This document shows, piece after piece, positions 6,594 to 64,000 of a stretch of 64,000 nucleotides of DNA; the first letter of the stretch is position 1, and each line of letters opens with the position of its first letter. The translations under genes were made by a program, and so were the position numbers. Source of the stretch: Zingiber officinale. Its lineage: Eukaryota > Streptophyta > Magnoliopsida > Zingiberales > Zingiberaceae. Location: positions 31,688,202 to 31,752,201 of the forward strand of contig NC_055987.1 of the NCBI RefSeq assembly GCF_018446385.1. Direction: 5' to 3'. The notes below the pieces were generated by a model. That model was not told where the DNA came from, ran no database searches, and saw only the letters and a program-made list of their open reading frames with translations.

Positions 6594-8869
6594 CTAAAAT
6601 GTCCAGACAAAATCTGGTGCATCGTCCCTTGGCCCTGTCAGAGTTCGATACACATACATCTTTTCCACTCTGTGCATGTCACTAGGATTTTCCACCATCT
6701 CATCACTTTCTTCCCTCTCGTTTATGACTTCAACGTTTAATCTTGGCATCTTTGCAGCGAGTGCCTTGCAACCCCCTTGGGTAACATCACAAGATGACAT
6801 CCAAAGGGATCGCATTGTTTCATACTTCCCTACATTCTCCAAAAGTGCAGCATCACCAAATGGACTGTCTCTGATTTCAAGCTTTTTAAGGTTCTTGCAT
6901 CCATTGAGCACATAAACCATTCCTTTGTCACTTTCACCAGCAAATGCAATTGAAAGCATCTCAAGACGCGAAGCATACATGCCTATATACAAGAAAACCT
7001 TGTCAGTTAGAAGGCCTGATAATGATAGTCTCTTCAGATCTTTGCATGACTTCACAATTGCCCCAAAACCTTCATCCAATGGTTCGTTACTGATGGGATC
7101 TGGCTTTACAGGATCAAGAATACACAATCTGAACCGTGTGAAATGCGGGCAGTTCTTGGCAACTGTGATAAGTGCAGCATTTGTCATCTGGTGGCAGAAA
7201 TACAGTAAAGAGTTCAACTTAGGGCAGCCTGAAGATATAGCAACAAGCCCTTCTTCAGTTACAGCAGCAATGCCAGTACCATATACGTCCGATGGAAATA
7301 CCCTCAACTCCTGTAACTCTTTACAAGCACAGGCAACGGCTGCTAAGCCTTTGTCTCCAATTGAATCTAAAACCTGAGGATCAATCCAGCCAAATTAGAT
7401 AAAACAACAAGGAAAACACAGAAACAACTAAAGAAGCAACATCAACTCACCCAGAGTTTTTGAAGTTTGAAACAGTGACGAATCATCTTTATTAGATCAT
7501 TAACCTGGATTGCAGGGGCATAGCTTAAGTTAAGGACAGTAAGGCTTGAACAGATGGAATATATGGCCTGCAGGTAGCGAGGAGCAGCATCCCAGAAACC
7601 TGACAAATTCCTTATAGAATTGCATTTGTAGAAGGCATTTAATAGATTCTGATAAGCTTCGGTGCGGTGGTCAGCTGTGAAAGAACCAGTTCCAAGTTCC
7701 ACCAAATTGGGGGCTCGGGCAAGTATCTTGATAAGTGACTCAATAGATATTGCTCGATTAAGCTTCAAGCACCTGAGGTTCTGGCACCTAGCAACAAGTC
7801 GCTCAAGGGCACTTGTATTCACCTCTCCTTTTAGACATGCGAAGTTTAGAGATACCAAGGAAGTACAGGAATCAGGGAAACAACTTAGCCACTGCCGGCC
7901 ATGATCTTCCACTTCATTTTCCTGTAAATCTAACTCCCTAAGACCCCTAGTAACAGAAAGCAATATAACATGAGAAATATGGTAATAGTTTGAGAATCAA
8001 ATATAAAGCTAATACACCCAGGTAATCCATCACTTTCACTGATGGATCAATATAGCTAGCATAACCATCATAAGAGGAATTCAAAATAATACTGATCTTT
8101 CCTATATCGAATATAATACAATTGGTTCACAAAGACTAATCTATTAAGCGATACCATCGCTTGTCTCCCTCAACAGATTAGTAAACATGACACAAAAGGT
8201 ATGCCAGTGCTTCTGGATTCCATGGTTTTAATTTGACTTCAGATAGGTGAAAATGCATACAGTTCAAAAGTACAGTATAAAATCATTAGTGGCGCTCACC
8301 AAGCAGAAGCTAGGTATGAAGGTATCGAAGAACCAAAAAAAAAAAAAGCATAAGCGAAGAGCATTATAAAAGGAGTTGTTAAGCAAATTAATTTAGCGGA
8401 AACCAGCAACTTCTCACCTGCAGTGAGTAGCGATCTCAGCAAGCCCATCAGTGCTGAACCCCTCGCAGCTAATTAGAACAAGAGACTTAAAGTTGGGGAA
8501 AGCGCGGGCTAGAAGCTCCAGGCTTTCATCCGAGACCACCATCCTCTTCAGTCGGAGCTCCTCCAAACCAGGGCAACAACGTGCAGCCGTCTCAATCCAC
8601 GGTAGCGCATCGCCGCCCCAATCGTGGGGAACCAGGTTGAAATCAGCAAAATGGGGCTTCCCCTTGACGGTGAGGCACTTCATTCCAGGGAATCTAGCCA
8701 TTACTCGTTCAGGCCGGACGGCATAACAGTTGCCGACGAATACACGCAAGCGGCTAAGCTGCTCCACAAGATACCACGCCTTGCACACTGTGGATACATT
8801 ATTACGGTCTCGATGCGAGCTGAGGAAGTCAAAGATGTGCTCCACCACCTCATCCGGGAAGTAAGTCAT
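6594..8869 (-). CDS. TIR1: TIR1/AFB-type F-box auxin receptor, three exons, 575 aa
   Basis: This encodes the F-box/LRR subunit of an SCF ubiquitin ligase that binds auxin and Aux/IAA proteins in the nucleus and triggers their degradation. The exons, with GT-AG introns, are 8869-8418, 7946-7451 and 7373-6594; together they give 1728 nt including the stop. The protein opens [13 protein letters not shown] (F-box, residues about 3-45) and is followed by about 18 leucine-rich repeats. The segment [14 protein letters not shown] carries the lysine, histidine and phenylalanines that in Arabidopsis TIR1 contact inositol hexakisphosphate and auxin. Other landmarks are [48 protein letters not shown] and MRSLWMSSC. 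The end is [10 protein letters not shown]. Length and exon pattern fit TIR1/AFB genes. I chose the start at 8869 because rice TIR1 starts MTYFP; an in-frame ATG lies upstream at 8959. It looks intact. It could be labelled TIR1 or AFB1-like. Confidence 0.95.
6800..6820 (-). promoter_or_regulatory. miR393 target site in the auxin-receptor exon 3
   Basis: The plus strand reads TCCAAAGGGATCGCATTG from 6800 to 6817, identical to the first 18 nt of plant miR393, with mismatches at positions 19 and 21. The mRNA therefore carries a near-perfect complement in the codons for ETMRSLWM. miR393 cleavage of TIR1/AFB transcripts at this place is established in plants. The site supports both the gene identity and its likely post-transcriptional control. 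Confidence 0.92.
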
Positions 8870-9760
8870 AGCTCCACAGCAACGAAAGTTTTTCTCTCGC
8901 ACCTTGCTCTCCACCTCAAGCTTAGTAAGAACAGGAACAACAAAAAGCACACAACCCAAACTCAGATCTGCAGCGGAGTTCCATAGAACACCACGAAAAA
9001 TGCGACAGGAACAGTGCTAAAGATCCAACCTTTGATGCAGCTGTTTCCAGCAGCTCCAGCTTCACATGCAAAGGAACGTAGATCTGCTCCAGAAATAGTA
9101 AAACTAATCCCTCGTTTACGAATAAAACCACAGAAGATCGTTCGGAGATGGTAAATCAAACAAAAGACCATCTTTTTTCATCCAGATCACATCGGGAACT
9201 CACCAACAGCAGATTGGGGGCAAAACAGAACCAAAACACGCGAAAAAAAAAAAGCAAAATCCTAAAAAAAAACGCAAGAACAAAAGCCCTAAAACCGGCA
9301 AGACAAATGCATCAAGAAAAAAACGCAGCGCGTCGAAGGAAATAACTAGATAAAAAAGAAGGGAAATGGAGGCGTGATCTACAGAAACACGGAGAAGAGA
9401 GAGAGGAGGGCCGACCTCAGCTTCCCATTCCCTACACACTCCCTCTCTCTCTCCTCGCTCGGCTGCTTTTTGCTCGCACTTCGACGCTTCTCTACTCCTC
9501 TAACAAACCATGGTTGAGAGGTCAGGTCACGTTTGGCTGAAGGCCAGTTAGAATATCGGAGGGTGGATTTCCGTTTGTCGGATAGTATGGATCGATCCGG
9601 ACCGTTGAGAGGCGATGGGAGATCCTCGTCCACCGGTTGCGGATATGCGATGAAGGGAAGGGTAGGGAGGAGGAAGGTTGCGTGGTTGGTATTAAGTCGC
9701 GATCGACGCTACCGTTTCGTTACCATTATTATTACTATAATTATTATTTTTGAGTAACGG
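8870..9760 (-). promoter_or_regulatory. Leader and promoter region of the TIR1-like gene
   Basis: Upstream of the start codon is a leader of unknown exact extent. At about 9427-9470 the minus strand has a GA-rich run (GAGAGAGAGAGGGAG), common in plant 5' untranslated regions and GAGA-type promoters. The sequence turns AT-rich near 9760. No clear TATA box was found. Several open frames of 60-85 codons on both strands have no recognisable domain and are treated as non-coding. Confidence 0.4.
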
Positions 9761-16180: not shown

Positions 16181-18592
16181 TTACATAAACACTACTCGTC
16201 TAGCTGTTTTAGAGGTGAAAATATTTATCAAATCTGCATAATCTAATTGTCGGACTATTTCTTTCTCAATCGATAACATTGCTAGCTCATTTAGTCTATC
16301 CTGTGACATTGTTGATCGAAGATAATTCTTGATTAACTTCAACTTTGAGAAACTTCTTTTATTTGGGAATAAACCATTTAGTTTTGCCAGACATTGTAGC
16401 ATATCAATTGCTCTTTTTTCATTTTTTAAATAGCACCTCAGGACCATCAACTCTGAATACAACTTATCACCATTAATGTCTGAACGTCCATCGTGACTCA
16501 AAAATTGTTGAAGCTCCATACAAGACTTCATCAAGCTAGTTAAAGGCTCACTCTTTAACTTCTCCAAATTCAATAAAAATCCAAAAATCTCTTGATATTG
16601 TTTAAATTGTTCAAATCGAATTTGAAGAGAAGATCGAGCTTGATCAATTATAAATAGAAAATATTCAACTCTAAAAGACTCTTCACTTGATCGTGTTACA
16701 TTATCATTGTCACTTTCATCAAATTGTTTTTTTCTTCGAATGATGCATTTTTCTCGAAATGTAGGTTCAATCCTCATTTCACTTGCCATTTGTTTAGCTT
16801 CATTCATGGAACTAGCAAACCCTTCATCTCTAAACTCATCAAGAAATTGATCAAGTCCTTGTAACAGATTGATTGCAATATCAATATCCATATCTTCAGA
16901 TTGAATAAACTTACTCACGGTATTTATTGCTCGTAACAAGTTATACCAGATTACTATTCCAAGCAAGAACTCAAAACTCTCAAGATGGCTAAGGTCTCAG
17001 CATCACTCTTTGTTTTAGAATCTTCAGCAACTTCTGCCAAGTCAAGTAAAGCATCTCTTATATGTACAATTTGCTCTTTTATGGCTTTCACACTTTCGAC
17101 ATGACTTTCTCAATGGGTATGTGACAATGGCTTAACAGTCAAACCAGACACCTTATCTTTAAAAATTTTCCATCTCTTTGTAGAGGAAGAAAATAATGTG
17201 TAGATGCGTTGCACCACTCCAAAGAAAGACTTGGCTTTAGGACAACATTACACCATATCAACTAAGGCCAAATTAAGACTATGACAACCACACGGTGTAT
17301 AAAAAGCTCTAGGATTTATTTCAAGCAATCTTTTTTGTACACCTTTGTGTCTTCCACTCATGTTAGATTCGTTGTCATACCCCTGTCTCTTATGTCATCA
17401 ATGTCAAGCTCAACTCTTGTTAACGCATTCATAAGTTCACTTAATAACCCAAGACCTGATGTGTCATCCACCTTCAAAAACTCAACCCAATATTCTTCTA
17501 CTTTTGGCGTGTCTGTTGAATCATCCAAGCATCGTAGCACTAGAGACATTTGTTCTTGATGACTCGCATCTGGAGTACAATCAAGTATTACTGAAAAATA
17601 TTTTGCATGTTTAACTTTTGCAATGATTGACATTTTCACTTCATTTGCCAAAGTTTCTATCAATTCATTCTGAATTTTAGGACTAAAATATGTATATTGA
17701 GATTCCCTTGCTTCACAACGCCGAACATGCTCTTCCATCACTGGATCAAACTCAGCAACCATTTCTATCATTTGCAAAAATAGCCCATTATTCTCGACAT
17801 AAAGTTTCTCATCATCCCCTCGAAAGGCCAAAGTATTTTTAGCAAGTGTTTTCACAATAGAGATTATTCTTGTTAACACTTGCCTCCAATGTTGTCTTTC
17901 TTTATTGATTTGAAGTTGCATACTGTAATCAGTTGTTTGATTTTTTTCAGCCTCTTTTCTGATTCAACCCAAGCAATCATGCAATTCATATGATCTCTAC
18001 TAGTTTCATATTGTTTAAGACTTCTATGCATATTACGCCAGTCTTTGTATCCATCATTACCCAGATTCCCCATTCTACTCATCATTTGTTCAGTCTTGAA
18101 CAACTTGCAATAGAAGCAAAATATTTTATCCAATGAAATAGAATATACAAGCCATCTTCTATCTATTGTTTGTCCATTTGTCATTACCCGTGTATAATGC
18201 GATGAATCAAAATGTCTATTGTTACTATCCTTAGGAAACAAAAAATCATTCACTCTTTTTGGACCCATTTCAATTAAGTAGTCTCTCAATTTTTTACTGA
18301 TGTTATTCCAATTTTTAGGATCCTGCAAATTCAGAGTTGAATCTAATTTTTCATGTTGAGAGTCTTCTTCTAAGTTTTCATTCAACTCCATCAAATTGGC
18401 AGCCTCAACCAATTCCTCATTTTTATTGTGACTTTGTTCTTCAATCACCAAATTATCTGCTAATTTCTCTCTTTCTATTCTGCTACTTCTTATAAAATAT
18501 TTGTTAATATCACCGGCTTGACTTTGAATTAATGCCTCCTCTCTTTGTTTCATTTTTCTCTTTTGAGCTCCAGACATATATTTAGGAGGCAT
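16181..18592 (-). pseudogene. hAT transposase (TTF zinc finger, DUF4371, hAT C-terminal), broken
   Basis: The reading starts at 18592 (MPPKYMSGAQKRKMKQRE). It contains the TTF-type zinc-finger region with 'DKIFCFYCKLFKTEQ' and the preceding 'NFLFPKDSNNRHF'-like block (DFLFPKDSNNRHFD here), then breaks by a frameshift near 17930-17945, next to a T homopolymer. A second frame (17921-17358) covers DUF4371, with 'YFSVILDCTPDASHQEQ', which includes a catalytic-type Asp. A stop-ridden stretch (about 17357-16967) still shows 'CGCHSLNLAL' and 'FFGVVQRIYTLFSSSTKRW'. A third frame (16966-16181) holds the helical C-terminal part with 'RSFSKLKLIKNYLRSTMSQ', the hAT dimerisation region. The full family length is about 750-800 aa. 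At least one frameshift and several stops separate the pieces, so no functional transposase is expected. Confidence 0.9.
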
Positions 18593-19974
18593 TTTTAATA
18601 TTCTTTTATTATACCTGCAATGTATTAAAATTAAATATTAACTCAATAATTCATGTCTACATTCAAGAGTAACAATATATTATGTTAGATTGTTTTGGAT
18701 AGTTTTCTGATAAAAAATTGATTAAACCAAACGACATTTAATAAGAAGAGGCAGCTACAATTAACTGACAATGTATATAAGAATACTATTGGACTAATTT
18801 CAAATTTTCAATGAATAAGAAAATACATTATCTTACAATTTACATAATATATTTATATAAGCTAACTGCAGATTTAAAAGATTCGATCACCTAACTAATT
18901 TTCTAATAGGTGATTTATACAAACAACAAAGTAAAAGACGTAGCATGGAAAATCATCAAAAATGAAAAGTAGTTTAACCTTTTCTAGAAAATCATCAAAG
19001 TAAACTAATTGCTGGTTCAATTATGAATTAACAAGACTGAAACTAGAACTGATAAAAGAAAAAAAAAATATGTGAAAATGATAGCACAAAAAGACTGAAA
19101 CTAGAACTGATAAAAGAAAAAAAAATATGTGAAAATGATAGCACAAAAAGTAAAGCAGAGATAAAAAACTGATAAAAGAACACTGAAGAAAAGAAATACC
19201 ATCCATTGACCTAACTAACCTTTGTCTGTGAACTAATAAAAGAAATATCATCCAATTATCCAATACAAAAGTAAAGAAGAGAAAGTCTAAAGAATGATTA
19301 AAATTAAACATTTAAACTTGATATTAGACAATGATGCACAAAAATAAAATTTAACCAAATTGTCCAATGTCTAAATCCTACTGCTGAGTGTTGACGGATC
19401 AAGATTCAAGAATGTCGGAGAATTGGAGAAGAACTTGGAAAGAACACTGAACACTGGAGAAAAATCATGTAATGTTAGCAGTGTTGGTGCGATGCAACGC
19501 TATGCCTATGTGCATAGACTTAAAATGCCTTCTCGCTTCTCTAGAGTCTAGGGATGCCCTGCAGAAGGGATTAGCAAACGTTAGAGATATAAAAACCAAG
19601 TCTTTACCTTAAGTTTTTAGATTATTAGAAGATCATTAGAAAAGTAAGAAAGGGAAGAGGGAAATTACAGGGGTTTTTTCTCTAAAAAAAAACTTGGTGA
19701 AAAGAATCTTTATTAGACAAGATGTCAGGATTGTATTTGAGAAATTGGGGAAAAACACTGGTTTTCTTGATAAAATTTAGTCAGCTACAGCTAGGTTAAA
19801 AGAATCAAAAGCTCGAGAAATCTTGAGTTCTTGACCAAAAAATTTGTGAAAAGTCGATCTCGACAGTCGGCAAAATACCGATCTCAAAAAAAGACAAAGA
19901 AGCGAGAGGAAGAGAGCAAGAGGAAGAGGGATCAGTGATGGAAGTTTGGATGATACTAACTTAGGACTTGCTCG
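18593..19974. other. hAT internal non-coding region with a 57-bp tandem duplication
   Basis: This lies upstream (minus strand) of the hAT transposase start and probably held its 5' untranslated exons; an acceptor-like word lies just before the start codon region near 18615. It includes a 57-bp block present twice in tandem ('AAGACTGAAACTAGAACTGA...') at about 19032-19148. The remaining sequence has no recognised coding content. Confidence 0.5.
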
Positions 19975-20189
19975 CACTACAACAAAAACCCTCATAGACA
20001 TCAGTGGAACAACAACGGTTTTAAGCAAAAACCGATGTCTTTGAGTATTTTACACCGGTTTTTTCAAAAACCGGTGTCTATGAGCGCAGATTTTAGCTCA
20101 TAGACATCGGTTTTTTAGGCGATGTCTATGAGCGCCTTTTTTTCGTTAATAGACACCGATTTTAACTGCGGTTTTTAAAATCCGGTGTT

Positions 20190-20760
20190 AATGAACCAAA
20201 ATAAAATATTTTAATATTCCCACAGCCAAAATTTGCTCCCTCCAAACCTAAATCTATATCGCGCCCCTTCCTCACGCGACCATCTCTCTCGTCTAAACCT
20301 AAACCTAAACCTCCGACCATCTCTCTCAACCTCATCTGCCTCTTCTCCTTCCTAGATCGACGCCCTTGCTTCTCCGTCCGCGTTGTGAAACCTCGGCCAC
20401 GTTGCTCGCAGTCTCGCTTGTTTTTTTTGTTGGTCCAGTCCGCGGAAGAAGAAAAAAAAAAGCCGCGTCGCATCAAAAAAAGCACCGCCCGCGAGCGAGC
20501 TCCTCTCCGCGAGCCCTAGCCACCTTCCTCTCCGCGAGCCACCGCCCTCTCCACGAGCGAGCTCCTCTTCACGACCAGCCACCTTCCTCGCCGCGAGCCA
20601 CCGCACCTTCCTCGCCGCGAAACCTCCTCCAACGCTGGACTTCACGCCGGAGAACCACGATCGCTGTTTATCTCTTAGAGGTCGACTGCTCCTCTCTCTT
20701 TTCTATGTTCTCCATTTCGTCTCTCGGTTTTTGTTATATTAGCTCCGGATCAATTTGGTA
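20190..20760 (+). other. GC-rich 5' segment of CACTA element 1, partly shared with element 2
   Basis: About 20240-20360 aligns with about 28200-28312 of CACTA element 2: 'CCAAACCTAAATCTATATCGC' against 'CCAAACCTAAACCTATATCGC', and 'CTTCTCCTTCCTAGATC' against 'CTTCCCCTTCCTAGATC'. It contains short telomere-like CCTAAA iterations and a pyrimidine-rich leader look. It could be the element's own promoter or leader, or the leader of a gene captured before the two copies diverged. The following stretch (20380-20640) has repeats of 'CGCGAGCCACCG' and 'CGAGCGAGCTCCTC' and no recognised product. Confidence 0.5.
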
Positions 20761-20983
20761 GGCAGGTTACTTGTGGAAATGCCTGAATGAGATTTTTTTT
20801 TTGGTTACATGCTTTTCTACGGTAGATTTCTGTCATCGTTGACTAGTTTTTTTGTGTGTGGATTAGGATTTCTCACCACTTGTTTAAATTCATCGGTATA
20901 GTTGGAAAAAGTGTAATTTTTACCATTAACTATATAGATACGTGCAAAACATACTGAAGCATTTGTTGCTGTGGATAGGTCTA

Positions 20984-21678
20984 ATGGACAATGGGAAACA
21001 AGTGAAAAACGATAACTATGCTGCTGATATTGCTTCCATAAGGGAGGCGAGAGTCCGTATTGCTCCATATATTCATGAAACTCCAGTGCTTACCTCGAAG
21101 TCTTTAGATTCTATAGCTTCCAAATGGTTGTATTTCAAGTGTGAATGCTTTCAAAAAGGGTAGAGATCCTATCTTGAATAAGGCAATTATCTCGAACAAT
21201 TTATGAAGAATCAGAATATTTAGTAGTTAGCAACTTTATCAATTTTATTTCAGAGGAGCCTTTAAGATTAGGGGAGCTTCAAATGCTATATTCTCCCTTT
21301 CTGATGATCAAGCTGCCAAAGGCGTTTTGACACACAGCAGGTTATCTCCATATAATTTCAAACAATAATGTGATTTATTTTTAGTATGCCTTTGTTTTTT
21401 GTTATTCTTGTTTTTTCTTAGGTCGGTAATATAGTTTTTTATTGCAGTGGTAACCATGCTGCAGCAGTGGCTTTGGCTGCAAAGCTCCGTGGAATCCCAG
21501 CATATGTTGTCATACCGAAAAATGCTCCAAAATGCAAGGTTGAGAATGTCAGGCGGTATGGTGGTCAAATCTTCTGGAGTGAATCAACGATCCAATCAAG
21601 AGAGAGTATTACTGAGAAAGTTCAGCAAGATACTGGTGCAATTTTGGTTCATCCTTTCAACAATAGATTCACCATCAG
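20984..21678 (+). pseudogene. Captured 5' half of a serine racemase gene (three in-frame exons)
   Basis: The exons are 20984-21159, 21254-21340 and 21448-21678, with GT-AG introns in correct phase; together they encode about 164 residues in one frame. The ATG at 20984 follows an acceptor AG. Recognisable pieces are APYIHETPVLTS, FKCECFQKG/GAFKIRGASNA (the Lys of GAFK is the PLP-binding lysine of fold-type II enzymes), SGNHAAAVALAAKLRGIPAY and VIPKNAPKCKVENV, ending at HPFNN. The family enzyme interconverts L- and D-serine or dehydrates serine and is about 330-340 aa. The glycine-rich phosphate loop and the metal site of the second half are missing, so the captured part cannot be a full enzyme. 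It lies inside CACTA element 1. Confidence 0.88.
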
Positions 21679-23107
21679 GTTTTGTATTTGTCATTGACCA
21701 CTTGATCTAATCTCCATTGTAACTTTGGTGTCACATTTTGTACATTGTATTTTGTACTTTGTACATGGTAAAAAGTCAAACTCTTTGACTACCTCCTTAA
21801 TGTCTCCTATTACTGATATTTCAAGTCCCGTTGTGTCCATTACTATTACTATGAAGAAATTGAAAGGAAAGAACTACGCTTTGCGTGCTGCAATAGTTTG
21901 AGTTTGGTTTGTGGTTCATGATGTAATCGGCGATCTCTTCCAATTAAGATAAGACATTGGGATAGTTACTCACATTGGTTGACTTTAGATTTTTGAGTTG
22001 ACTGTAGTATTTTATAAATCACTTCAATTGTCAAGGTCATTTAGAATAGTTCTGACAAGGTCTTCACTATTATGTGCCTTCATATTGTTTGCTCTGAGTT
22101 AAAGCTAGTGAATGCTCAGATTTTGGGAGCCCCTTCCATTCTACTCCCGTCAGATGTGTAGATGCGGAGGATGTTGGCATTTACCATAGTGGCACAAGTT
22201 GGTGTTGTCCTAGATCAAATAATTCGGGGGAACTATTGACTAACACCATCAAACATATTTAAATTGATTATAATTGAATTATAATATGCTTCATTTCTGT
22301 GTTACTAGTATGTTCCAATTTACCTCTAGAAGTTTGTGAACTTTGTTTGATTATTTATTGTCTGCTATCTATATATTGTATTGCCATTTCTTTTTGGAGA
22401 AGTGTGCTTCAATTTTTTTCCCCCTGATGAAATCATCATTGTATTTGTACCTCCCTATATGCATTCCTGAACAAATGGTTTAGAATTTAAGCTTGTGCTA
22501 TCTGTAAATATTCAGTTTTTTGCTGCTAAATTGTGTTCGAAGTTAACACTTTTATCATGTGTATTTCTATACACAGGAAAAACATAATCAGGAATTTCAC
22601 TGGTAGCTAAGATCTGTTATTTTGACAATGAGGTTAGTACTAGTAATGCGTGATATTTACCTTTTCTTTTGTCTTGGCCTTGCTAGATGTTGTCTGTTTA
22701 AACAAAATTTCAAAAAATTGTTTTCGTAAATTAGTTGACGCTATTGCAACTGGCCTGAAAATTCACAAATTCCATAGTTCAGGACCTTTTAGCTTTTCTT
22801 TGGGAGTTATCAGTAACATCAAGAAATTAAATGAAGCGAAAGCGGTTTCTTTACGAGTTATCAGTCATGTTTCACGAGGAAGCATGGTTTTATAAATTCT
22901 CAGTTTATATCTTAAAGATTAATCATTTTTCAGTTTCTGGAATGTCTGGGGCTGCAAGTGAGAAATTGTCCTGATAATTTCATACTTCAGATCCTTGAAT
23001 GACTTATCTTTTTCATTTCAAAGGAATTATGCTACTCCATCTTGTCCTGCATTAGCATCATTTTCTCATATGACTGACAGTTACATCTACTTTGACTTCG
23101 TTGTCAG
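21679..23107. other. CACTA element 1 interior, unassigned
   Basis: Intron-like, T-rich sequence. A stretch at 22700-22895 keeps an open frame with 'LVDAIATGLKIHKFHSSG', not recognised; it may be a captured exon. No family can be assigned. Confidence 0.35.
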
Positions 23108-23216
23108 TGGTTTATCAAGAGGCAAAAGAGAACTCTTTTTGAAGTTCTTGAGAAGGTGAAAGCCGGTAAAACCAGAAAGTTCATACCTAAATTGGAGCAC
23201 TCTTTCGACGTGCATG
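23108..23216 (+). pseudogene. Probable captured exon of an unidentified gene
   Basis: An acceptor-like TTGTCAG precedes 23108, and a donor-like CATG/GTATCC follows 23216. The open frame between reads a lysine/arginine-rich segment including RTLFEVLEKVKAGKTRKFIP and HSFDVHG. The exon-like boundaries and balanced composition, against intron-like flanks, suggest a captured exon. I do not recognise the source gene. A further complex stretch at 23275-23500 may be another captured exon. Confidence 0.4.
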
Positions 23217-23951
23217 GTATCCGGAATAGATGAATTACTGTAACTCTGTGATCCATTGTGGTTTTCGCAGAGTTGATGATTCTCGACTTCATCTCCTTGC
23301 TGTTGACATTTAGTCAGGACCAGATCGTGAAAATCTGCGTGCCAAAGGCAGTTGCAGATTCTATGCTGCCATGTCGCCCTGATGCAGAGTCAACTGGCAG
23401 AAATAAAAGGCGGTTGCTCGCGCTGGTGCTGACGGAGTCACACCTGAAGCGCAGGATTTTAGCTGTTGGTGATTCAGTGGTTGAATGCCCCCAGTGAGTA
23501 GTGCACAGCAACTTCCAATTCTCTGATTGTTTGGTTGAAAATAATCTATTGTAAACAAAATCTAAGAAGATTTCACTAAAATGTTCAGTTGCGATCACTT
23601 GTAGGAAAAGGAGCAACTGATTACTGCCACAGGCTTGCACCAGTTGCACATTCTGATCTTCTTTTTGGCTGAGTTTCATGTGGTAAATAGTGCTCTTAAA
23701 ATGGTCCTTGGAAGAGCAAAGGTGAATCTGTAGTGACAGAGTAGTGGATTACATTATGTATCATTCTGAATAATTCCATAGCATTGCCTGAGGATGATTT
23801 AGTTTAGCTGTTGCAGTATCCACTTTGCATTGATAATCTTCTCTTGGGCAGATACACAGATGGAAGGACTGGGAAACGGATACGACATCGGCTGAGTATG
23901 CCTTCACGACTGGTATATATATGTTCACTATTCTTTGTTTTTTTGTCCCAG

Positions 23952-24201
23952 ATTTGCATCCTTGGATCCTAGTTTGAGTGGTAAAAGTGCAGAACCAGTA
24001 TATCGTGATGCAAAAGGTTTGAGTTCTCTGACACAACATTGAATTTGAAATTTTTTCATGTACATTTGGAAGCCCAGATTCGACCGGTTTTGTAGTTTTA
24101 TATTTGCATGTTTCTGACTGCTGAGTGACTGAATTATTTTCTGCAGGGAAAGCTATTTCAAAGGAAGAGCTACTGAAACCAAAGGAGGAAGAGAAACCAA
24201 A
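23952..24201 (+). pseudogene. Captured exons resembling the splicing factor BUD13
   Basis: Two exon-like blocks, 23952-24016 and 24147-24201, have GT-AG flanks. The first encodes FASLDPSLSGKSAEPVYRDA and the second KAISKEELLKPKEEEKPK. These match the order and wording of the conserved part of BUD13 (a RES-complex subunit of the spliceosome), where an 'MDP.ISG.GAE.V.RD..GKRISKEE' motif is followed by a lysine/glutamate-rich stretch. The identification is from memory of the family. Only about 40 residues are present, so the piece is not functional alone. It lies inside CACTA element 1. Confidence 0.55.
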
Positions 24202-25379
24202 GGTATTTTTCACACACTTCATCTTTGATTTGGTGGTCATGTTTACCATACGTGTCAGTTAATTCCCAAGAGCTATATTTTTTTGTTTCACTTTTATTGT
24301 TAGCTATATGAGCACAACATGCTATGCTTTTGATTTATTATTACAGCTATTTATCAGAAAGGAGAATTATTGGTACACTTTTGATTGTTTAATTATAGGC
24401 TCTCTTAGTTGGAAGCAAGTGTAGTGCTGATTGTGTAGGAGTGATTTGTAACCCTTATTATTATTTATTAGTTTTTGCACAATTTTTTATGTTGGATCCA
24501 TTGCTGTCTAGTTGATTTTTATTTGCTCTTTTTGTTTCTTTAAGTTCACTTCCATTTGCAATCTCTTCATATATTAGTGACTAATGGTTGGTTGCTGTTC
24601 CTGGATTTGTTATAGCGCTATTGGTTGTTTCTACTAAAGAAAGTTAACTTTTATCAGGAATATTCTTCTGTGATCTTCCTACACAATTGAGAGACTTTGT
24701 AAAACCAAAGTAACTAATTTATTAGGTTGAAATGATAGATAGATGAGTGATCTCAGTCTTGGCATGACTAACATTTTTTTTTTATGTTCAAAACCTTTCA
24801 TTTTGTTTTGTATGGTTCTCTCTAAGAGCATGGACCTAGTTATCTTTTGACAACTGAATATGATTCTTTCTTCACATTATCGCAAATAACTTTCTTACCT
24901 TGTGAATCACTGAAGATCCTTATTGCAAGCATTGAAGTAAGCATTGATGTGGTTGAGATAAATGATGAATAGGTCTTTTTAAGCATTCAAATTAGTCATC
25001 TTGTTACCCGGTGCTCTTACTACTTTTTCAACTATGATTTTGGTCTTGATTTACTAATATATTATTTATGTGTTTTTACAGTTTACAAATCTCAAGTACT
25101 CCAGAGTTGAAATTGATGAAGTGCGGTTCGAGTGGGTTGAATGCATGCTAGATTACATTTGAGATAGTTGTACCTTAATGTGTTAACAGAATGTTATACT
25201 TTGATTTTGATATCTATTAGTTAGCTTTTGATGTAAAAAGAATGTTTGGGTATTTTATGGATATTGTTGTAAGAAGATTATTTATATAATTTGTGAATAT
25301 TTGTGTATTTTATGGATATTATTGAATGAAGAATATTTGTACAATTTGTGAATATTTGTGTATTTTTTTTTGTTATTGT
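24202..25379. other. CACTA element 1 interior, T-rich, last exon-like piece at 25081-25162
   Basis: Mostly intron-like sequence. After an acceptor-like TTTTTACAG at 25080, a short frame at 25081-25162 encodes 'FTNLKYSRVEIDEVRFEWVE' and ends in TGA; it may be a last exon of a captured gene or of the element. The tail repeats 'TTTGTGAATATTTGTGTATTTTATGGATATT' type words (25240-25370), which also occur in element 2 near 30480-30620. Confidence 0.4.
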
Positions 25380-26113
25380 CGGTTTTAAAATCAAATCTGT
25401 GCTGTTAGAAAAAATACATATTACATCGGTTTTCCACCGATGTAAAACCGGTGTTATAAAGTAATATTACATCGGTCATTTACCGCTGCCAAAACTGGTG
25501 TTATTAACATACTATATTACATCGGTTTTACACCGTGTATGAAACGGTATCGTTAAGTGATACTACACCGGTTAATAACCGATTCGAAAACCGGTGTCGT
25601 TAAGTGATACTACACCGGTTTTAACCCGATGTCTAAAATGTCAGACTTTTAACATCGGCTTCATAGACATCGGTCGAAAATCAAATAGACACCGGTGGAA
25701 AACCGATGTCTATGAGCGATTTTGTTGTAGTGTCGGCGCCGACGGAGAACCTTCTGGAGATGCCCTATTGCCCTTGTAAAGCATCAGACGGTCCGACGGA
25801 TAAGATCTTTGGCTGCCCGCCGCCGGAGACACCGAGCGGAATATCCTCGATGGGAAGTGAACCTCATATTGCCCCACGCAGACGCCTCGAAGAGTCGAAG
25901 GGCTCTGCCTCTCTGGCTCTCTGCAGCGGGTGCGTGCGGCGTGCCTCAGAGGAGTCGGAGCCGAGAGAAAGCAAAAAAGGGTTTAGACTTTAGCGTAGCC
26001 TTTTACCATTGTGTTTTTATATAATAATAAAAAAAAATTTTGGGCCCCTTCCTGGGTCGGGCCTGAGGCGGTCGCCTCTCTCGCCTCGTGAAAGGTCCGG
26101 CCCTGGTTCTTCT

Positions 26114-27479
26114 CTTTTGCTTCTTCTTTCATATCTTCTCTTCTATGTTTTCCTCAAAAGCAACCGTCTTCCTTTTATTTTTTCCAGCAAACAGTATTTT
26201 ACAAGTAGCTCTTTTTCCCCTTTGTCCAACCATTGTTTCTTTGTCCAACCATAGCAGAAACAAGAGTAAATTGTTCCTTTATTCTTTCATGTTTCATTAA
26301 TTGAAGGAGAGTTGTAAAGTATAAATTTTATGTTATTAGGTTGCTAATTAGGATGTTAGATCGGAATGACGGTCTCATATGTAGAAATGATAAATATTAT
26401 GAGGAAGCGAGATCACAAATAATTTTTTAATTTTGAGTCATAGATAAGTTCTGGGGATCGACGAATTGCTAATTCAACTAGAACCAAGGGCTAAGATTAA
26501 AATTTTTAAATTTAAGTTTATTTTCAGCTCCTTAAATTTGAAATTTAGGTTTATGAATTTTTAAAATTGACCTATACTAATGTTTGGAATTTTAAAAAAT
26601 TTCAATTTATATATCTATTTTTAAGTATCTTCTAATTTTTAGAGTTAAATAATTTGATTTTGTATTGTATTAATTTTTTAAATTTATTGAATTCACTTCA
26701 TTAGTTGAAAATCATGACTATACCACTGTATGTCACAGAGTAATTTTTTTTTGAAGCTTCAAATTAGGGTTAGTAATTTGGTGAAAAGATGTCTTATTAT
26801 TTTCTCCACCACTTCATCAATGTGAAAAGTCATTTGCTTCCATTTACAATTAGATATTGATATAATCACCTGATGATGTGCTTAAACTCTAATATATATA
26901 TAACCAACTAGATATGGCTGAGCTTGCATTCCTTAACATCTCTTAAATTCGCTATCGGAGTGAAAAATGTGAAGCGCTTTGAGGGTTACTATTTCTTTTC
27001 ATTGTTATTGTCAACAGCAATCTTTGCGCATCGAATTACTCTTCTTTTTTTTTTTTTCCTGATGAGTTACATGATAAAACTTGATGTTCTCCTTGTGATT
27101 AGGCCTTTCATATTTCCCAATTCATTTTCAGTGATAAAAAAAAGGGGATTTTAGTACTAGCACTATTTCAATCTCAATAAGATTCCCAGCCAATTGGCTG
27201 AGCAAGAGCATCATATTCTGTCCATGACATGACTAGTTCCTTTTGATACTACCATCATTTTTCATCATCATGTGGCAACAAAAAAAATGATTCGCTCATT
27301 CCAATATCCTCACCAATCCGTCCCTAGACTAACACGAAAGACCTAAATCACAGTGGCTACTAGCCGCTAGTACAGGTGGCCAAGATATGAGAATCGGTTG
27401 CACATCTCTTATTTTGTCTATTAATCTTTATGCAAGGCTAATCGCTAGTAATATTTGAATCAATTAAATCATTTGATAT
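26114..27479. other. AT-rich spacer, no gene seen
   Basis: This is the flank of the hAT element, with homopolymer and AT-rich words and no domain-bearing frame. It ends where a Copia LTR begins at 27480. Confidence 0.5.
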
Positions 27480-27681
27480 TGTTAGTATATGATAAATTAT
27501 TATTATATAAATGTAGATTAGTCTTTTATTATTACTTTAGTGTCTATTTATATTTCCTTTTCATCTGTAAATATAAATTTTTTGTAATATAATTTGTTAG
27601 TTTCTTTTTATGACTACCTCTTTCTCTCTTTTTCTTTGTGTGGTTTCTTGCATTCTATTTGCATTATTTGCTTTGTTTACA
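27480..27681 (+). repeat. Short Copia LTR followed by a primer-binding-site-like word
   Basis: It starts TGTTAGTATATGATAAATTA and ends TTTGTTTACA; about 202 bp. It is followed at once by TAGTATCAAAGTC, a degenerate form of the initiator-methionine tRNA primer-binding site TGGTATCAGAGC. A related LTR lies at 44159-44302. It is therefore the 5' LTR of a decayed plus-strand Copia element whose protease (about 31003), integrase and later pol pieces lie to the right. Confidence 0.7.
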
Positions 27682-28314
27682 TAGTATCAAAGTCAATAAA
27701 TCTCCTCATCTTCTCTCTTGATGAACTGTGGAATAATTTTATTTTCAGAATTCTTTGTCGCGGATGTATAAGAATTATATTTTCTCGAGTTTCAACTATT
27801 AGATCACCTTGAAACTTTGAGAGGTTCCTCACACCCAGGCTGCATTTTGAACGGTGAAAATCGGATTTTGAGATAGTTAAGTTCACTTGACGATCGAAAA
27901 ACATGAATATTAATTATGCCATCACTACAAGAAAAACTCTCATAGACATCGGTGGAACAACAACGGTTTTAAGTAAAAACCGATGTCTTTGAGTATTTTA
28001 TACCGGTTTTTCTAAAAATCGGTGTCTATAAGCGTTGATTTTCGCTCATAGACATCGGTTTTTTAAGCCGATGTCTATGAGCGTCTTTTTTTTGTTAATA
28101 GACACCGATTTTAACAACGATTTTTAAAACCCGGTGTCTATGATAAAATAAAATAATCTAATTTTTCCACCAATACTTAGCCGAAATTTACAACACTTCA
28201 CTCTTCCCCCCAAACCTAAACCTATATCGCGCCGTCCACCGTATATCGTCGCGACGCCGCCACCACTTTCCTCCTCGCCTCATCTCCCTCTTCCCCTTCC
28301 TAGATCTACGAAAG

Positions 28315-28455
28315 ATGGCATCTTTTTCGTGGACGGAGGAGGATGTGCTACGGTGCTGCGGTAGCAAGCGTTTCGCCAAGGAGCTCGCCTCCGCCTGGCC
28401 GTTTTCCGACCTCCACCACGTAATCCAATCCGCCCATGGGATCTGGTTCAATAAG
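28315..28455 (+). pseudogene. Captured exon 1 of a TTL (OHCU decarboxylase/HIU hydrolase) gene
   Basis: The ATG at 28315 opens MASFSWTEEDVLRCCGSKRF, followed by a segment ending HGIWFNK before a donor GT at 28456. It resembles the N-terminus of plant TTL, the bifunctional allantoin synthase of uric acid breakdown, where a '..CCGS..FA...' motif and '..A..IWFN' occur in the same spacing at the start of the OHCU decarboxylase domain. Only 47 codons are present; the catalytic histidine and the whole transthyretin-like domain are absent. If spliced to the next acceptor (29037), the frame meets a TAA at 29043-29045 after two codons. It lies in CACTA element 2. Confidence 0.7.
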
Positions 28456-29049
28456 GTCGCACCTTTGACCTCTTCTTCTACCTCTTTCTCTTTTTCAGTG
28501 TTTCTTTTTTATTCTTCCTTCCAACCTCACCACCTTTCTTCTTCCATAATTCTATCTTTATATTTGCTTTTGTTTTCTTTAATATGAATCTCTTATTTCT
28601 GCCCCGTTGTTGTTTTGGTGCTCGATCATCTGGTAAATCTCATTTCTTTTTCCCCTATAATTTAATCCATTTATCAAAGGTATACTTTCCGATCTGAAAT
28701 TTGTCTTCCATCGTATTGTTGTTTTGTTTTCGATCCTTAGGTTCTATCGCTTTTTTTTCTCAATTTTAACTTATGCGGCTACTTTGATTTGATTTGGTGA
28801 AGAAAAAGTGGAGTTTTCTACTGAGATTTGATGGGTTCTCTGTCTATGATGGAGCGAGAGCTGAATTCGTCTCGAGTTTGATGGTATTTGTTTAGCGTTT
28901 AGTTTGGCGATTGTTGAGTTGCTTTTCTTTTTGTATCTGGAAGACGAGATCGATTATTTCTCATCTAGTGGCGATGCTACTTATTTTGAGACATTTAATG
29001 ATGTCTTTAACCGTGTGTTTGATGTCTGTTGTGTAGAATACCTAAGGAA

Positions 29050-29560
29050 ATGGTGAAGGCTGTTGCTGTCTTGGGTAACAGTGAGGGTGTTAAGGGCACA
29101 ATTTACTTCGTCCAGGAAGGAGATGGTGAGAAATCTCTTGAAATACTACTTGTGGAATGCTAAATTCCTTTCAGATCTAGGGTTTCAACTTCAACCATTT
29201 TGATTTTTTTGTGAATTTGTGATCCGATCTGATTTTGGGATGTAAATCTCTGTGATAGTTCCAACCACCGTCACCGGATCCATCACTGGCCTCAAGCTTG
29301 GGCTTCATGGCTTCCATGTGCATGCTCTTGGAGACACCACCAATGGATGCATGTCAACTGGTAAAATTATTTACCTTTTCCTTCATGGCGATCTACTGAG
29401 TTGCAAGTTTCTGATTGAAAGGATTAAATTACTGATTATGTACTCATGCTCTTGTATATTGTAGGGCCTCATTTTAATCCTGTTGGAAAGGAACATGGTG
29501 CTCCTGAAGATGAAAACCGACATGCTGGTGATCTAGGCAATGCCATTGCTAGCGAGGATG
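29050..29560 (+). pseudogene. Captured first exons of a cytosolic Cu/Zn superoxide dismutase gene
   Basis: The exons are 29050-29125 ([20 protein letters not shown]...), 29259-29360 ([27 protein letters not shown]) and 29465-29560 ([20 protein letters not shown]...), in one frame across GT-AG introns. A 13-nt leader piece (29037-29049) follows an acceptor. The first copper histidines (GFHVH), the bridging histidine (HFN), the zinc ligands (EHG.., RHAGD) and one disulphide cysteine (NGC) are kept. The C-terminal third, with the last copper histidine, the active-site arginine and the second cysteine, is missing. The family enzyme is about 152 aa; about 91 codons are here. Splicing on to the next captured exon (29688) would give a stop after two codons, so only a truncated product could be made. 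It lies in CACTA element 2. Confidence 0.93.
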
Positions 29561-29687
29561 GTAAGTTGCTTTATCATCAGCTCATGATGTTACTTTTGTT
29601 ATCTATTTTTACCCATATTTACTATAACTCTCGTAACAGAAAAAAAATCAAACTATGGCTTGATCAACATTTTTTACTGCTTCTCAG

Positions 29688-30370
29688 GATACTGATTGGT
29701 TGCAAGTTCAATGGTACTATTCCTGTTGAACTAGGCAATCTATCCCAGCTCCAGACCTTGTTAGGATGTAATTTCCACTGTCTTACTATTTTTTTGCTAG
29801 CTGAGGAACAAGAGTCTAATGATTCAAACCTGTGTCACAGATCATTAAATGCAAACCATTTTACTGGTAGAATACCTGCATCCCTGGGTAGGCTCGCCGA
29901 CCTCATATGGCTAGACCTGGCAAACAATCACCTCAGTTTTCCATGCATGATCAAATACAAAACTTACACGGTGAAGAATTAACGATGATGAAATATGTTC
30001 TTATCAGACACTTGAACAAGAATCATCTCTCAGGTCCAATTCCACTGAGCCTTTTCAGCTCTAGCATGAATGCTAAACATATGTAAGATATATCAGCTCT
30101 ATTGCCACCTGAAGCTTCCTTGTAATAGGCTCTCTGCATACTAACTACTTGTTTGCATTCAGACTGCTTGACAGCAATAACCTTTCTGGGGTTATTCCAG
30201 AATCAATTGGACTTCTTCAGAAACTCAAAGTTTTGTGAGTGCTTGCTATTAATTTCCTTTTCATCAAACTGTTTGTTTATATCTTTCTTGTGCTTTTCTT
30301 AGACGGCTAGACCGCAATAATTTGATTGGACTAGTTCCTCAAAGTATCAGCAATCTTACAAGACTCAAAA
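29688..30370 (+). pseudogene. Captured ectodomain exons of an LRR-VIII-1 type receptor kinase
   Basis: Exon-like blocks at about 29688-29769, 29841-29936, 30008-30082, 30163-30234 and from 30303 encode consecutive leucine-rich repeats: [75 protein letters not shown] and LDRNNLIGLVPQSISNLT. The order and exon breaks fit the LRR-VIII-1 group (relatives of HPCA1 and neighbouring receptor kinases), where each repeat sits on a short exon. No transmembrane or kinase part is present. It lies downstream of the SOD exons in CACTA element 2, in the same orientation but out of frame with them. Confidence 0.8.
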
Positions 30371-31002
30371 GTGCTATAAGTGATTTCTGGAATCAATGAG
30401 ATCAAAAAACTGCACAGAGGAAGAAGGATAACGTTGGCATCAGTAAGAAGAATATTTGTGCACTATCTATTACCTTTTGATGTTGTAAGAAGAATAGTTA
30501 TGTGTAATTTGTGGATACTGACTTGATGTGCACAATATCTATTATCTTTTTATGTTGTAAGAAGAATATTTATGTGTTGGTTATATGGATATTGACTTGG
30601 TGTGTTTAGATACATTGATGCATTTTTATTTGTGATTTTCTTAGTGAATTAATAATATTAACTTAATTTTATGATTTTCTTGGTGATAATATTGGGTTTT
30701 CACTATTTCGGAAATTGAATTTGTGTCGTTAAACAATACTGATATTATATCGATTTTCCACCGCTGCAAAACCGGTGTCATTAACTAATATTACATCGGT
30801 CGTATACCGCTGCCAAAACTGGTGTTATTAACATATAATATTACATCGGTTTTACACCCGATGTCGTTAAGTGATACTACACAGGTTTTAACCCGATGTC
30901 TAAAATGACAAACCTTTTACATCGCCTTCATAGACATCGGTCGAAAATGTAATAGACATTGGTGGAAAACCGATGTCTCTGAGGGTTTTTGTTGTAGTGC
31001 AT

Positions 31003-35532: not shown

Positions 35533-36675
35533 ATGGCCGGCGCGAACATTTATCCCCCGAAGTTCGACGGAGATTTCGCTACATGGAAGAGAAAAATGGA
35601 GGTATTCTTTAAAACAGATTTTGACATTCTTATTACAATGAAATATGGTTTTGCAGCTCCAAAAGACAAAGAAGAAAACCAATGGACGAAGAAGGAGCAG
35701 GCTAATTTCGTCGCCAATGAAAAGGCTGAGTTCCACTTGCTCAGCGTTCTTCCGCCCCATGAGGTAAATCGGATCGGAAGCTACGACTCCGCGAAAGACC
35801 TCTGGGAAAAATTCCTGGAGCTTCACGAAGGTACCTTGGAAGCTAAGCCAGCGAGGCGCGACATCCTCCGGACTCAACTTACAAACCTTCGGATGAACCA
35901 AGGCAAGAAGGTAGCGTAACTCCAAGCAAGGATCAAAGAGCTGTGAATGTAACTAACCAATCTTGGAGAAGAAGTAACGAACCGGGACTCGATCCGGTAC
36001 GCGCTAAACGCCTTCCCGAGAACTCCCGAGTGGGCCTCCTTACTAGATGCATACTACATCTCTAAGGACTTCGAGGTAAGTACTCTAGAGCATTTGTTTT
36101 CTACTTTTGAACTTCACAAATCTCGAGTTGCAGAGCCCAATGGAGTAGAGAAGACTAGTCAGAACATTGCCTTAAAGGCAAGAATAAACGATTCTGACTC
36201 CGAAGCCTCGGTCGACGAATCCGAAGCGGCACTACTGGTAAGACGCTTTAATAATTTTTTTAAATCTAATAAATTTAGATCGCAGTCGAAAAAGCTCCAG
36301 CAAAAGAAAAGGGTGGTTCGTTGCTACAATTGCAACAAAGAAGGACATATCAAAGATGACTGCCCAAAACTGAAGAGCAAAAGTAAAGAAAAGAGTAAGA
36401 AGCTAGCTCGACCCAAACACAACCTTAAGGCCACGTGGGATGATTCATCATCCTTCGAATCCGAAGTCGAAGAATTCTCGGGACTAGCACTGATGGCCAA
36501 CCATCAGCTAGAAGAAACGTCTAGCTCAGAAATGAGCATAGATGAAGGGAGAGGAATAACAGAAGAAGAAGAAAGCTATGATGAAGGGGGAGCATCACAA
36601 GACAAGGTAAGTAAGGTACGTGCCCTAAACCCTAAACAATCCTTTCGTTTCATTAAAGCTCTTTTAAAGAATTAG
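35533..36675 (+). pseudogene. Copia gag with zinc knuckle, interrupted by stops
   Basis: The frame opens at 35533 (MAGANIYPPKFDGDFATWKR), 51 nt after the primer-binding site. It shows the Copia gag pattern with KDLWEKFLELHEG. It stops at 35917-35919, and a second stop follows near 35943. The reading resumes to 36675 and includes the zinc knuckle CYNCNKEGHIKDDC (36322-36363; C-x2-C-x4-H-x4-C all kept), followed by an acidic serine-rich tail. Gag packages element RNA into particles. With two stops near the middle it is unlikely to yield full-length protein. Confidence 0.85.
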
Positions 36676-50213: not shown

Positions 50214-50274
50214 AGTGGTATCAGAGCGAGGTCGCTCTTCGCCGGATTAACACCCGAGGGAGCACAAGCTAGAG

Positions 50275-51750
50275 ATGGATCAACTCGGAGAAGACATCAC
50301 CATTCCACCCTTCTACGATCGCGACGACTTCGCGTATTGGAAGGTAAGGATGAAGTATTTCCTTATGACTAACATTGAAAATTGGAGTTGTGTACAATTA
50401 GGTTTCACTCCTCCGATGGATAAAGAAGGAAAACCTCTTGAGAAGAAGAAGTGGACGAAGGAGCAAATCCACCAATCCACAATCAACGACGAGGTAATGA
50501 AAATATTTGAATTCTCATTACCTAACGATATATTGTGTAGGATAGGTGGATACAACAATGCCAAGGAGTTGTGGAACAACTTGGCTAAGTTCCATGAGGG
50601 GAACTCCACTTCAAGCCATGAAGAGGAGCTAAGTGAGCCAAGTAGCTCACATCATAGAGGAGAAGATTTAGAAGTTGAGGGTTACTCAACATCTAAGGAC
50701 GAAGAGGAGGAGAGTTCTTCTTCAAGTTCGGAGCAAGAAGAAGAAGCTTCTACCTCCGAAAGGGATGAAGAAGAGAGCTCGCATCCACCTTCAACCCTAG
50801 GTAACTCAAGCAATTTAAGTTCAATTAAATTACACATTATGTGCTTTGAGTGTAGGGAACATGGACATTACAAGAGTAAGTGTCCAAAGAGGGTAAGAAA
50901 GACTCCACCGGCGCCAAAGGTCAAGGAAGCCAGAGTCCCGAAACGCAAGGGCAAGGAGCACATCGTGTGCTTCCAATGCAAGCAAAGGGGACACTATAGG
51001 AGCCATTGTCCGAGGGGGAGGCAACCTCACAAGGGCAAGAGACCGGGCACATCGATAGGGGGAGCTAGGGCAAACCCTAAGGTAATCTCTAAGGCACATT
51101 CTTGCAATTCTAGTAGGATGCATGCTAGTAGCCTCATTGCTATTGTCAAGAATGATAAGCATGTTAATTATAGAAATCGATACACATGCTTAGGAGCCAA
51201 ACATGTTAACCTAGATAAGGATAACACTAGAAATACCAACCCTAGGATTAGTTCATCTAAGGTTAGGGAGAACCTAGGTAGAAACCCTAAATCAACTAGA
51301 CATATGCCTAGGAATACCTCAAGGAAGAGTGATAAATCAAAAATTGAGGTATTAGAGAAGGAGAATCAAGTCTTGAGGTCAAGACTTGATACTTTGAAAA
51401 AGGCTCTTAAGAACTTGGAGAAGTCATCTCTAGGGTGTAAAGGTCAAATCTCAAAGCCCAAGGACAAGAAAGGTTTGGGTCACAAACCTAAGTCCCAAAT
51501 GGTCAAGCCCACCTATCATAATGTTCCATTCGATTATGGAACAAAAACTAGGGCTAGGAAGACCACCACCAAGGTCACAAGGGGAGTCACCCCTAGAGTT
51601 GATCTTGATGAGTCCCAAATGACCAAGGCTTTAAAGCCTAAGAGGGTCATTAGGAGGGTTGCTAGGGAAGTCATCCCTAGTGAATATTTAGTGAACCCAA
51701 TGAGCTCACATAGATATTGGGTTCCTAGGAGCATCTTCTCTATCCCATAG
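50275..51750 (+). CDS. Copia gag protein with two zinc knuckles, 491 aa
   Basis: An open frame starts MDQLGEDITIPPFYDRDDFA, 47 nt downstream of the primer-binding site. The N-terminal part matches Copia gag (DFAYWKVRMKYFL, NAKELWNNLAKFHEG). It then jumps to an acidic serine/glutamate-rich stretch, so the middle of the usual gag domain seems deleted. Two CCHC knuckles follow: CFECREHGHYKSKC (from residue 190) and CFQCKQRGHYRSHC (from residue 232), in a basic lysine/arginine-rich context. A possible coiled coil (VLEKENQVLRSRLDTLKKAL) lies near residues 360-385. Gag binds and packages element RNA. No protease or polymerase follows, so if expressed it would act only as a structural or RNA-binding protein. 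It is uninterrupted, unlike the gag of family B. Confidence 0.85.
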   Translation: MDQLGEDITIPPFYDRDDFAYWKVRMKYFLMTNIENWSCVQLGFTPPMDKEGKPLEKKKWTKEQIHQSTINDEVMKIFEFSLPNDILCRIGGYNNAKELWNNLAKFHEGNSTSSHEEELSEPSSSHHRGEDLEVEGYSTSKDEEEESSSSSSEQEEEASTSERDEEESSHPPSTLGNSSNLSSIKLHIMCFECREHGHYKSKCPKRVRKTPPAPKVKEARVPKRKGKEHIVCFQCKQRGHYRSHCPRGRQPHKGKRPGTSIGGARANPKVISKAHSCNSSRMHASSLIAIVKNDKHVNYRNRYTCLGAKHVNLDKDNTRNTNPRISSSKVRENLGRNPKSTRHMPRNTSRKSDKSKIEVLEKENQVLRSRLDTLKKALKNLEKSSLGCKGQISKPKDKKGLGHKPKSQMVKPTYHNVPFDYGTKTRARKTTTKVTRGVTPRVDLDESQMTKALKPKRVIRRVAREVIPSEYLVNPMSSHRYWVPRSIFSIP

Positions 51751-63708: not shown

Positions 63709-64000
63709 CACTACAAAAAGAATACCCGTATAGGAGCAGTTTATTAGGAGCGATTTTAACACCGCTCTTGAAAATCAAACAATAGAAACAGTTTGAACTA
63801 AATCATTTCTAATGTCTTACCTTTTTAGAACGGTTTTACAACCGCTCTTGTTGAATAGTTCTAACACCGATTTGAATAAACCGCTGCTGAAATTACTCTT
63901 AATGATTCAACTATTAAAAGCAATCTTGAAACTACTGATATTGGATACATTTAGCAGCGGTTCTATGTTAAACACTGCTACTAACTGTTTCTATTGCTCT
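63709..64000. mobile_element. Left end of a third CACTA element (different family), truncated by the window
   Basis: It begins CACTACAAAAAGAATACCC at 63709, preceded by AGT, the candidate 3-bp duplication. It is followed by subterminal repeats built on 'AGAGCGGTTT/AACCGCTCTTG' words in both orientations (63738-63990). The sub-terminal words differ from those of the elements at 19975 and 27923, so it is another family. The right end lies beyond the window. Confidence 0.75.

Follow-up and report, generated by a model that had tools for sequence, protein, structure and literature searches.

The 64,000-nucleotide stretch of ginger (Zingiber officinale) DNA analysed here, referred to below as the window, contains two neighbouring elements, A and B, that with high probability are non-autonomous transposons of the Pack-CACTA kind sharing one terminal family, and for which we infer a history of gene capture. 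Element A is a 3,077-bp CACTA element at positions 27923-30999, which starts with CACTACAAGAAAA at 27923 and closes with TTGTTGTAGTG at 30999. Its 31-nt terminal inverted repeats (27923-27953 on the plus strand and 30969-30999 on the minus strand) agree at 28/31 positions and are bordered by the target-site duplication CAT (27920-27922 and 31000-31002), so that the exact ends and the CAT duplication of the original prediction are borne out. The family-specific 5′ end (27923-28310, plus strand) holds subterminal repeats of the GACATCGGT type and a leader common to element B, and the family-specific 3′ end (30440-30999, plus strand, with an approximate start between 30440 and 30490) holds subterminal repeats as well. 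In this 3′ tail a 52-nt unit is present twice, at 30454-30505 and 30526-30577, the two copies agreeing at 87%. All 12 matches to GACATCGGT in element A (at most one mismatch, both strands) fall in its two ends, as do 13 of the 14 found in element B by the same measure, and the window outside A and B contains four.

The 55 CACTA and 65 TAGTG sites of the window were paired at distances of 0.2-20 kb, and three pairs reached at least 26/31, namely the ends of element A, the pair 19975-25732 that delimits element B, and the outer pair 19975/30999. A 3-bp duplication accompanies two of the three (CAT for A and TCG for B); the outer pair agrees at 29/31 and has no target duplication. None of 60 first-order Markov control windows held a pair at 26/31, and because the best control value was 23, compared with 28/31 in the elements, the ends and duplications of A and B are beyond chance. 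Six-frame analysis of the A interior (28311-30440) detected no transposase family at E up to 0.1, in agreement with the earlier reading of an element devoid of transposase, and no minus-strand match above the Pfam family cut-off. Element A combines the CACTA-starting terminal inverted repeats, 3-bp duplication and subterminal repeats that characterize CACTA elements with the host protein-gene pieces and missing transposase match that characterize Pack-CACTA elements.

The cargo of element A consists of exons from three unrelated genes, all on the plus strand, as had been proposed. Exon 1 (28315-28455) of a urate-pathway transthyretin-like/OHCU decarboxylase gene (TTL) comes first; its best support is a plant OHCU decarboxylase structure, PDB 2q37 (E 3e-4), and the Pfam OHCU match (E 0.09) is below the family cut-off. 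A non-coding interval on the same strand (28456-29049) follows, which we read as the start of the TTL intron, a leader intron of a Cu/Zn superoxide dismutase (SOD) gene, an acceptor at 29036 and the SOD leader, and parts of which are retained in the ginger proteins P0122, P0129 and P0131. SOD coding exons 1, 2 and 3 occupy 29050-29125, 29259-29360 and 29465-29560 (Pfam Sod_Cu, E 1e-26). Behind them lie five pieces of LRR-kinase exons, at 29688-29759, 29841-29936 (3′ end approximate), 30008-30082, 30163-30234 and 30303-30371, for which Pfam LRR_1 gives E 3e-13, pieces 1, 3 and 4 being assigned by LRR_1 and piece 1 also by PDB. Piece 5 is cut off on its 3′ side, and the ginger protein P0130 terminates at almost the same point. 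In PDB the LRR pieces hit a large number of receptor kinases; HPCA1 (21az, 9vbd) is one of them, and since many other LRR kinases score higher than HPCA1, the subfamily is left unnamed.

Most of these exons have kept their splice sites, as expected from the original prediction: AG and GT are intact at the three SOD exons and at LRR pieces 1, 3 and 4, and TTL exon 1 keeps its donor-side site. The expectation fails at LRR piece 2, which lacks a donor that fits the inherited phase (the GT at 29936, joined to piece 3, leads to a stop after two codons), and at piece 5, which is cut short and has no GT. The claim that the frames do not fuse is correct for joins at the inherited splice sites, TTL-SOD and SOD-LRR each running into a stop after two codons, but not for other join routes, which stay open. 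If the TTL donor is joined instead to an AG that lies ten bases downstream (exon start 29047), the TTL-SOD frame is open; an alternative TTL donor after 28499 yields another open frame, and a donor after 29588 lets SOD read on into the first two LRR pieces, a stop following shortly afterwards. Cryptic sites like those of ginger gene models even give an open TTL-SOD-LRR frame. In these models we found the join FNK|EMVK (P0121, P0123, P0126, P0128 and P0133), the longer TTL exon (P0122 and P0129) and the join LMM|ILIGCKF (P0009), all of which are to be taken as gene-finder choices rather than observed splicing. Because most splice sites of the cargo are intact and its exons face away from the shared leader, chimeric RNAs could be spliced from it.

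Element B (19975-25732, plus strand, 5,758 bp) has the same orientation as element A, from which it is separated by 2,190 bp. Its terminal inverted repeats agree at 28/31, and the duplicated target TCG stands at 19972-19974 and 25733-25735. The 5′ ends of A and B are 82.7% alike over 313 columns and 91% alike in a leader block of 33 nt that comes next; this likeness stops four bases ahead of the TTL ATG in element A; the 3′ ends are 72.9% alike over 347 columns, with an approximate boundary. That the ends are conserved in several copies is seen from A and B; sister copies beyond these two are known from predicted proteins alone, which give no view of CACTA ends. The only sister seen as DNA has cargo and the same 5′ boundary, and is not the cargo-free copy with a different boundary that had been named beforehand as the outcome speaking against the proposal.

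The cargo of element B is different, again on the plus strand. Exons 1, 2 and 3 of a serine racemase (SR) gene are located at 20984-21160, 21255-21338 and 21431-21694, the last with a read-through end; exon 1 is supported by PDB 5cvc, PALP and the ginger proteins P0178-P0181, exons 2 and 3 by 5cvc and by mapping to the ginger proteins, and the spliced racemase peptide matches 5cvc with E 3.5e-71. A stretch with MLO exons lies at 23108-23491 (Pfam Mlo E 2e-18 in the raw plus frame, and E 5e-31 for the sister protein P0178). Behind MLO, a further exon (23849-23911) is joined in the ginger proteins P0178 and P0179, and so are exons of no assigned source within 23986-25159 (about 23986-24226 and 25061-25159), for which no Pfam match was obtained. 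BUD13, considered as the source of the 23986-24226 exons on account of a resemblance, is not put forward, as PDB returned only designed repeat proteins and Pfam no match. The six frames of the B interior (20363-25260) contain no transposase family at E up to 0.1, and neither of the two interiors shows a minus-strand match above the cut-off in six frames, the only row being RICTOR_N at E 0.097, far below it. Element B therefore displays the ends, duplication, subterminal repeats and cargo of a Pack-CACTA element, without a transposase match. The five identified passengers of A and B (TTL, SOD, LRR, SR and MLO) share one orientation, for which random orientation would give a chance of 1 in 32, a statistically weak figure.

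Between B and A (25736-27919), no Pfam match was found in six frames at E up to 0.01. Elsewhere in the window, a further CACTACA start with a different following sequence stands near the window end (63709-64000). Judged by eye, open frames on the minus strand resemble a TIR1/AFB-type auxin receptor F-box gene (6594-9016) and a hAT/TTF-type transposase relic (16181-18637), and zinc-knuckle open frames on the plus strand (35953-36675 and 50251-51750) resemble retrotransposon Gag.

The cargo of both elements recurs among the predicted proteins of ginger. A TTL-SOD-LRR protein query, for which the best 120 of 1,602 matches were listed, returned 17 Zingiber predicted-protein clusters, every one of them (17/17) a collage protein. 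TTL stands ahead of SOD in 13 of the 17, and P0001, P0002, P0003 and P0009 carry SOD with intron sequence or the LRR join of element A. Three clusters run into LRR (P0009, P0129 and P0130), P0001 and P0003 end at its first five bases, and five run instead into a short-chain dehydrogenase/reductase (SDR), assigned by Pfam for P0128 and P0131 and by sequence likeness for P0123, P0126 and P0132. Seven end earlier (P0002, P0118, P0121, P0122, P0124, P0125 and P0133). Six of the 13 TTL-SOD models (P0118, P0121, P0122, P0124, P0125 and P0133) share the end ...GAPEDEN, which reads PKDEN in P0125; as element A has CGA at the next position, this shared ...PEDEN end would fit CGA-to-TGA decay of the CpG-to-TpG type. 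The longest contigs of the 17 clusters have 13 different lengths, and since the ginger assembly comprises 11 chromosome pairs (PMC8342452), some of the 13 contigs may be two haplotypes of one chromosome.

A racemase query, which also held residues of the 23986-24226 exons, gave a similar picture in the best 120 of 7,825 matches, obtained by scoring the 7,998 candidates that had most words in common with the query. Four ginger clusters, P0178-P0181, were the best among the matches listed, with 98-100% identity over 75-81% of the query, and the next species among them was Canna at 79%, which identifies ginger as the host. All four listed Zingiber matches are truncated racemases and three are joined to MLO; P0178, P0179 and P0181 are taken as sister copies because they differ from element B by few residues. 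Among the matches listed there was no full-length ginger donor; longer relatives were found in other monocots, at 82-88% for SOD (e.g. Musa and Ensete) and at 77-79% for racemase (Canna and Musa). No collage outside ginger was apparent among the matches listed for the TTL-SOD-LRR query, with Curcuma longa (P0152) present in the database, the inspected non-ginger sequences being P0127, P0134 and P0152 from this query and P0005, P0017 and P0046 from another search. The Vanilla planifolia protein P0127 is a SOD with a partly duplicated middle and without the ginger collage. Transposon cargo has been annotated as ginger genes in P0001-P0003, P0009, P0118, P0121-P0126, P0128-P0133 and P0178-P0181, some of which are named superoxide dismutase or serine racemase-like.

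These relatives also give some insight into the order of capture. P0131 retains the non-coding sequence 28800-28892, and P0122 and P0129 read into the TTL intron to 28500; such shared non-coding joins argue for common descent from one ancestral TTL-SOD join, and the presence of LRR in some copies and SDR in others points to one TTL-SOD module with alternative third passengers. TTL residue 11 is Val in all three LRR-type copies that have TTL (element A, P0129 and P0130) and Met in four of four of the SDR type (P0123, P0126, P0128 and P0131), P0132 starting at that Met; in copies of no set type it is Met in P0124 and Val in P0118, P0121, P0122, P0125 and P0133. We favour two later additions to one TTL-SOD module, as the sequences suggest, while deletions from a four-gene ancestor may instead have produced the LRR and SDR types. 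The 57 SOD residues put into a tree are too few to order the captures, and the tree groups neither the SDR nor the LRR copies. The serial capture originally put forward survives in a weaker form, in which TTL-SOD is common and the third passenger varies, with a step order that comes from protein models and not from DNA. The rarity then ascribed to a three-locus capture finds no support, in view of the neighbour with another collage, the 17 ginger clusters, and the several loci per Pack-CACTA element in maize and soybean.

Taken together, we propose that an autonomous CACTA element elsewhere would supply the transposase, that an ancestor probably first held the TTL-SOD module, that later copies would have added exons of an LRR kinase or an SDR downstream of SOD, and that serine racemase and MLO exons presumably entered a second lineage bearing these ends. 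Ordinary transposition may then have multiplied each completed collage, in which case element A would be one partly decayed copy rather than a site where three captures recently took place. By analogy with Tgm-Express1 of soybean, the cargo could be spliced into chimeric RNAs from transcripts that begin in the leader or in an adjacent gene.

It is improbable that the proteins are real ginger genes, that is, ordinary chimeric host genes that happen to stand between CACTA ends. The NCBI and ginger annotations do list them as genes, some under the names superoxide dismutase or serine racemase-like; however, SOD and racemase are each cut after exon 3, six of the 13 TTL-SOD models end alike (...GAPEDEN or variants) where element A has CGA next, the copies sit on contigs of 13 lengths, and A and B have target duplications. 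That unrelated insertions came to be nested by chance between two CACTA ends is barely credible, as it is contradicted by the recurrence of the same exon order and of some non-coding joins in ginger proteins from contigs of these 13 lengths.

If, as we prefer, A and B are Pack-CACTA elements, there is about an even chance that the repair of an excision gap, through template switching, introduced copies of the cargo, a route that would account for its clean joins. The motif scan finds no element ends in the A cargo, and the retention of introns and splice sites indicates that genomic DNA was the template. Gap repair is reportedly the capture mechanism of Rubin and Levy. These authors are named for the mechanism in an article on Chenopodium (PMC8978399). 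A more tentative candidate is the fusion of neighbours in the Catoni model, as described in PMC8903248 and PMC13317346, in which the transposase uses the outer ends of two close copies and the DNA between them becomes cargo. The close spacing and common orientation of A and B suit such a route, and the left end of B and the right end of A agree at 29/31, marginally more than the two ends within each element; moreover, local pairs from one cluster, most of them equally oriented, are in excess among maize hAT and PIF elements according to Gisby and Catoni, who describe internal acquisition as well (PMC8903248). On the other hand, no one-mismatch match to the subterminal motif, and hence no inner-end trace, is present in the A cargo (28311-30390), the lone match in the B cargo falls inside an exon (23884) and seems fortuitous, and without a common target duplication nothing shows that the B-A pair has moved as one unit.

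The Pack-CACTA reading makes this a multi-copy family in which the stepwise building of exon collages could be dated and ordered, with a shared module that has received two alternative additions and an adjacent pair arranged as neighbour fusion requires. It also means that gene-family counts are inflated, because transposon cargo is found among the ginger proteins that go by the names superoxide dismutase or serine racemase-like. We may further speculate, from the conserved leader, the same-strand exons and at least two third passengers, that the family is a gene-building chassis in ginger, the open frames that some copies retain or have regained (TTL-SOD-SDR and SR-MLO) being transcribed and kept by selection or as silencing camouflage, an idea that we consider unlikely.

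The main text of two ginger genome papers contains no occurrence of CACTA, gene capture or superoxide, and among the matches listed for ginger literature on CACTA or capture there is no report of this terminal family, which does not prove its absence. Elements of this kind are documented in other plants. Tgm-Express1, a 5.7-kb CACTA-superfamily element of soybean, contains intron and exon fragments from five genes that are unrelated to each other, and the splice sites of these fragments are used in chimeric RNAs (PMC1947982). It resembles the ginger elements as a CACTA element with exon and intron pieces of unrelated genes; it differs in residing within the soybean F3H gene and in having demonstrated transcripts, whereas the ginger elements, known from sequence alone, carry other genes and represent two collages in one terminal family. 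The Pack-TYPE elements of maize and rice have TIRs and carry coding pieces of the host that often derive from two or more loci; their ends are conserved, their interior is more variable, and the largest number of loci is found in maize Pack-CACTA elements (PMC8903248). The ginger elements agree with those Pack-CACTA elements as TIR elements with conserved ends and host coding pieces from several loci, and differ by their exon-intron runs and by one module with alternative third passengers. Helitrons differ from them in being rolling-circle transposons without CACTA ends or target duplication. Maize Helitrons are alike in the stepwise gathering of gene fragments that is described for them (PMC3288121). 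CACTA elements of Chenopodium have also captured host gene fragments, upstream of a CACTA coding domain that, in contrast to the ginger elements, is still present (PMC8978399). Thus, given multi-locus CACTA capture in soybean Tgm-Express1 and in maize Pack-CACTA elements, A and B belong to a documented kind, and what is less usual is the presence of two different collages in one window together with a shared module that has alternative third passengers.
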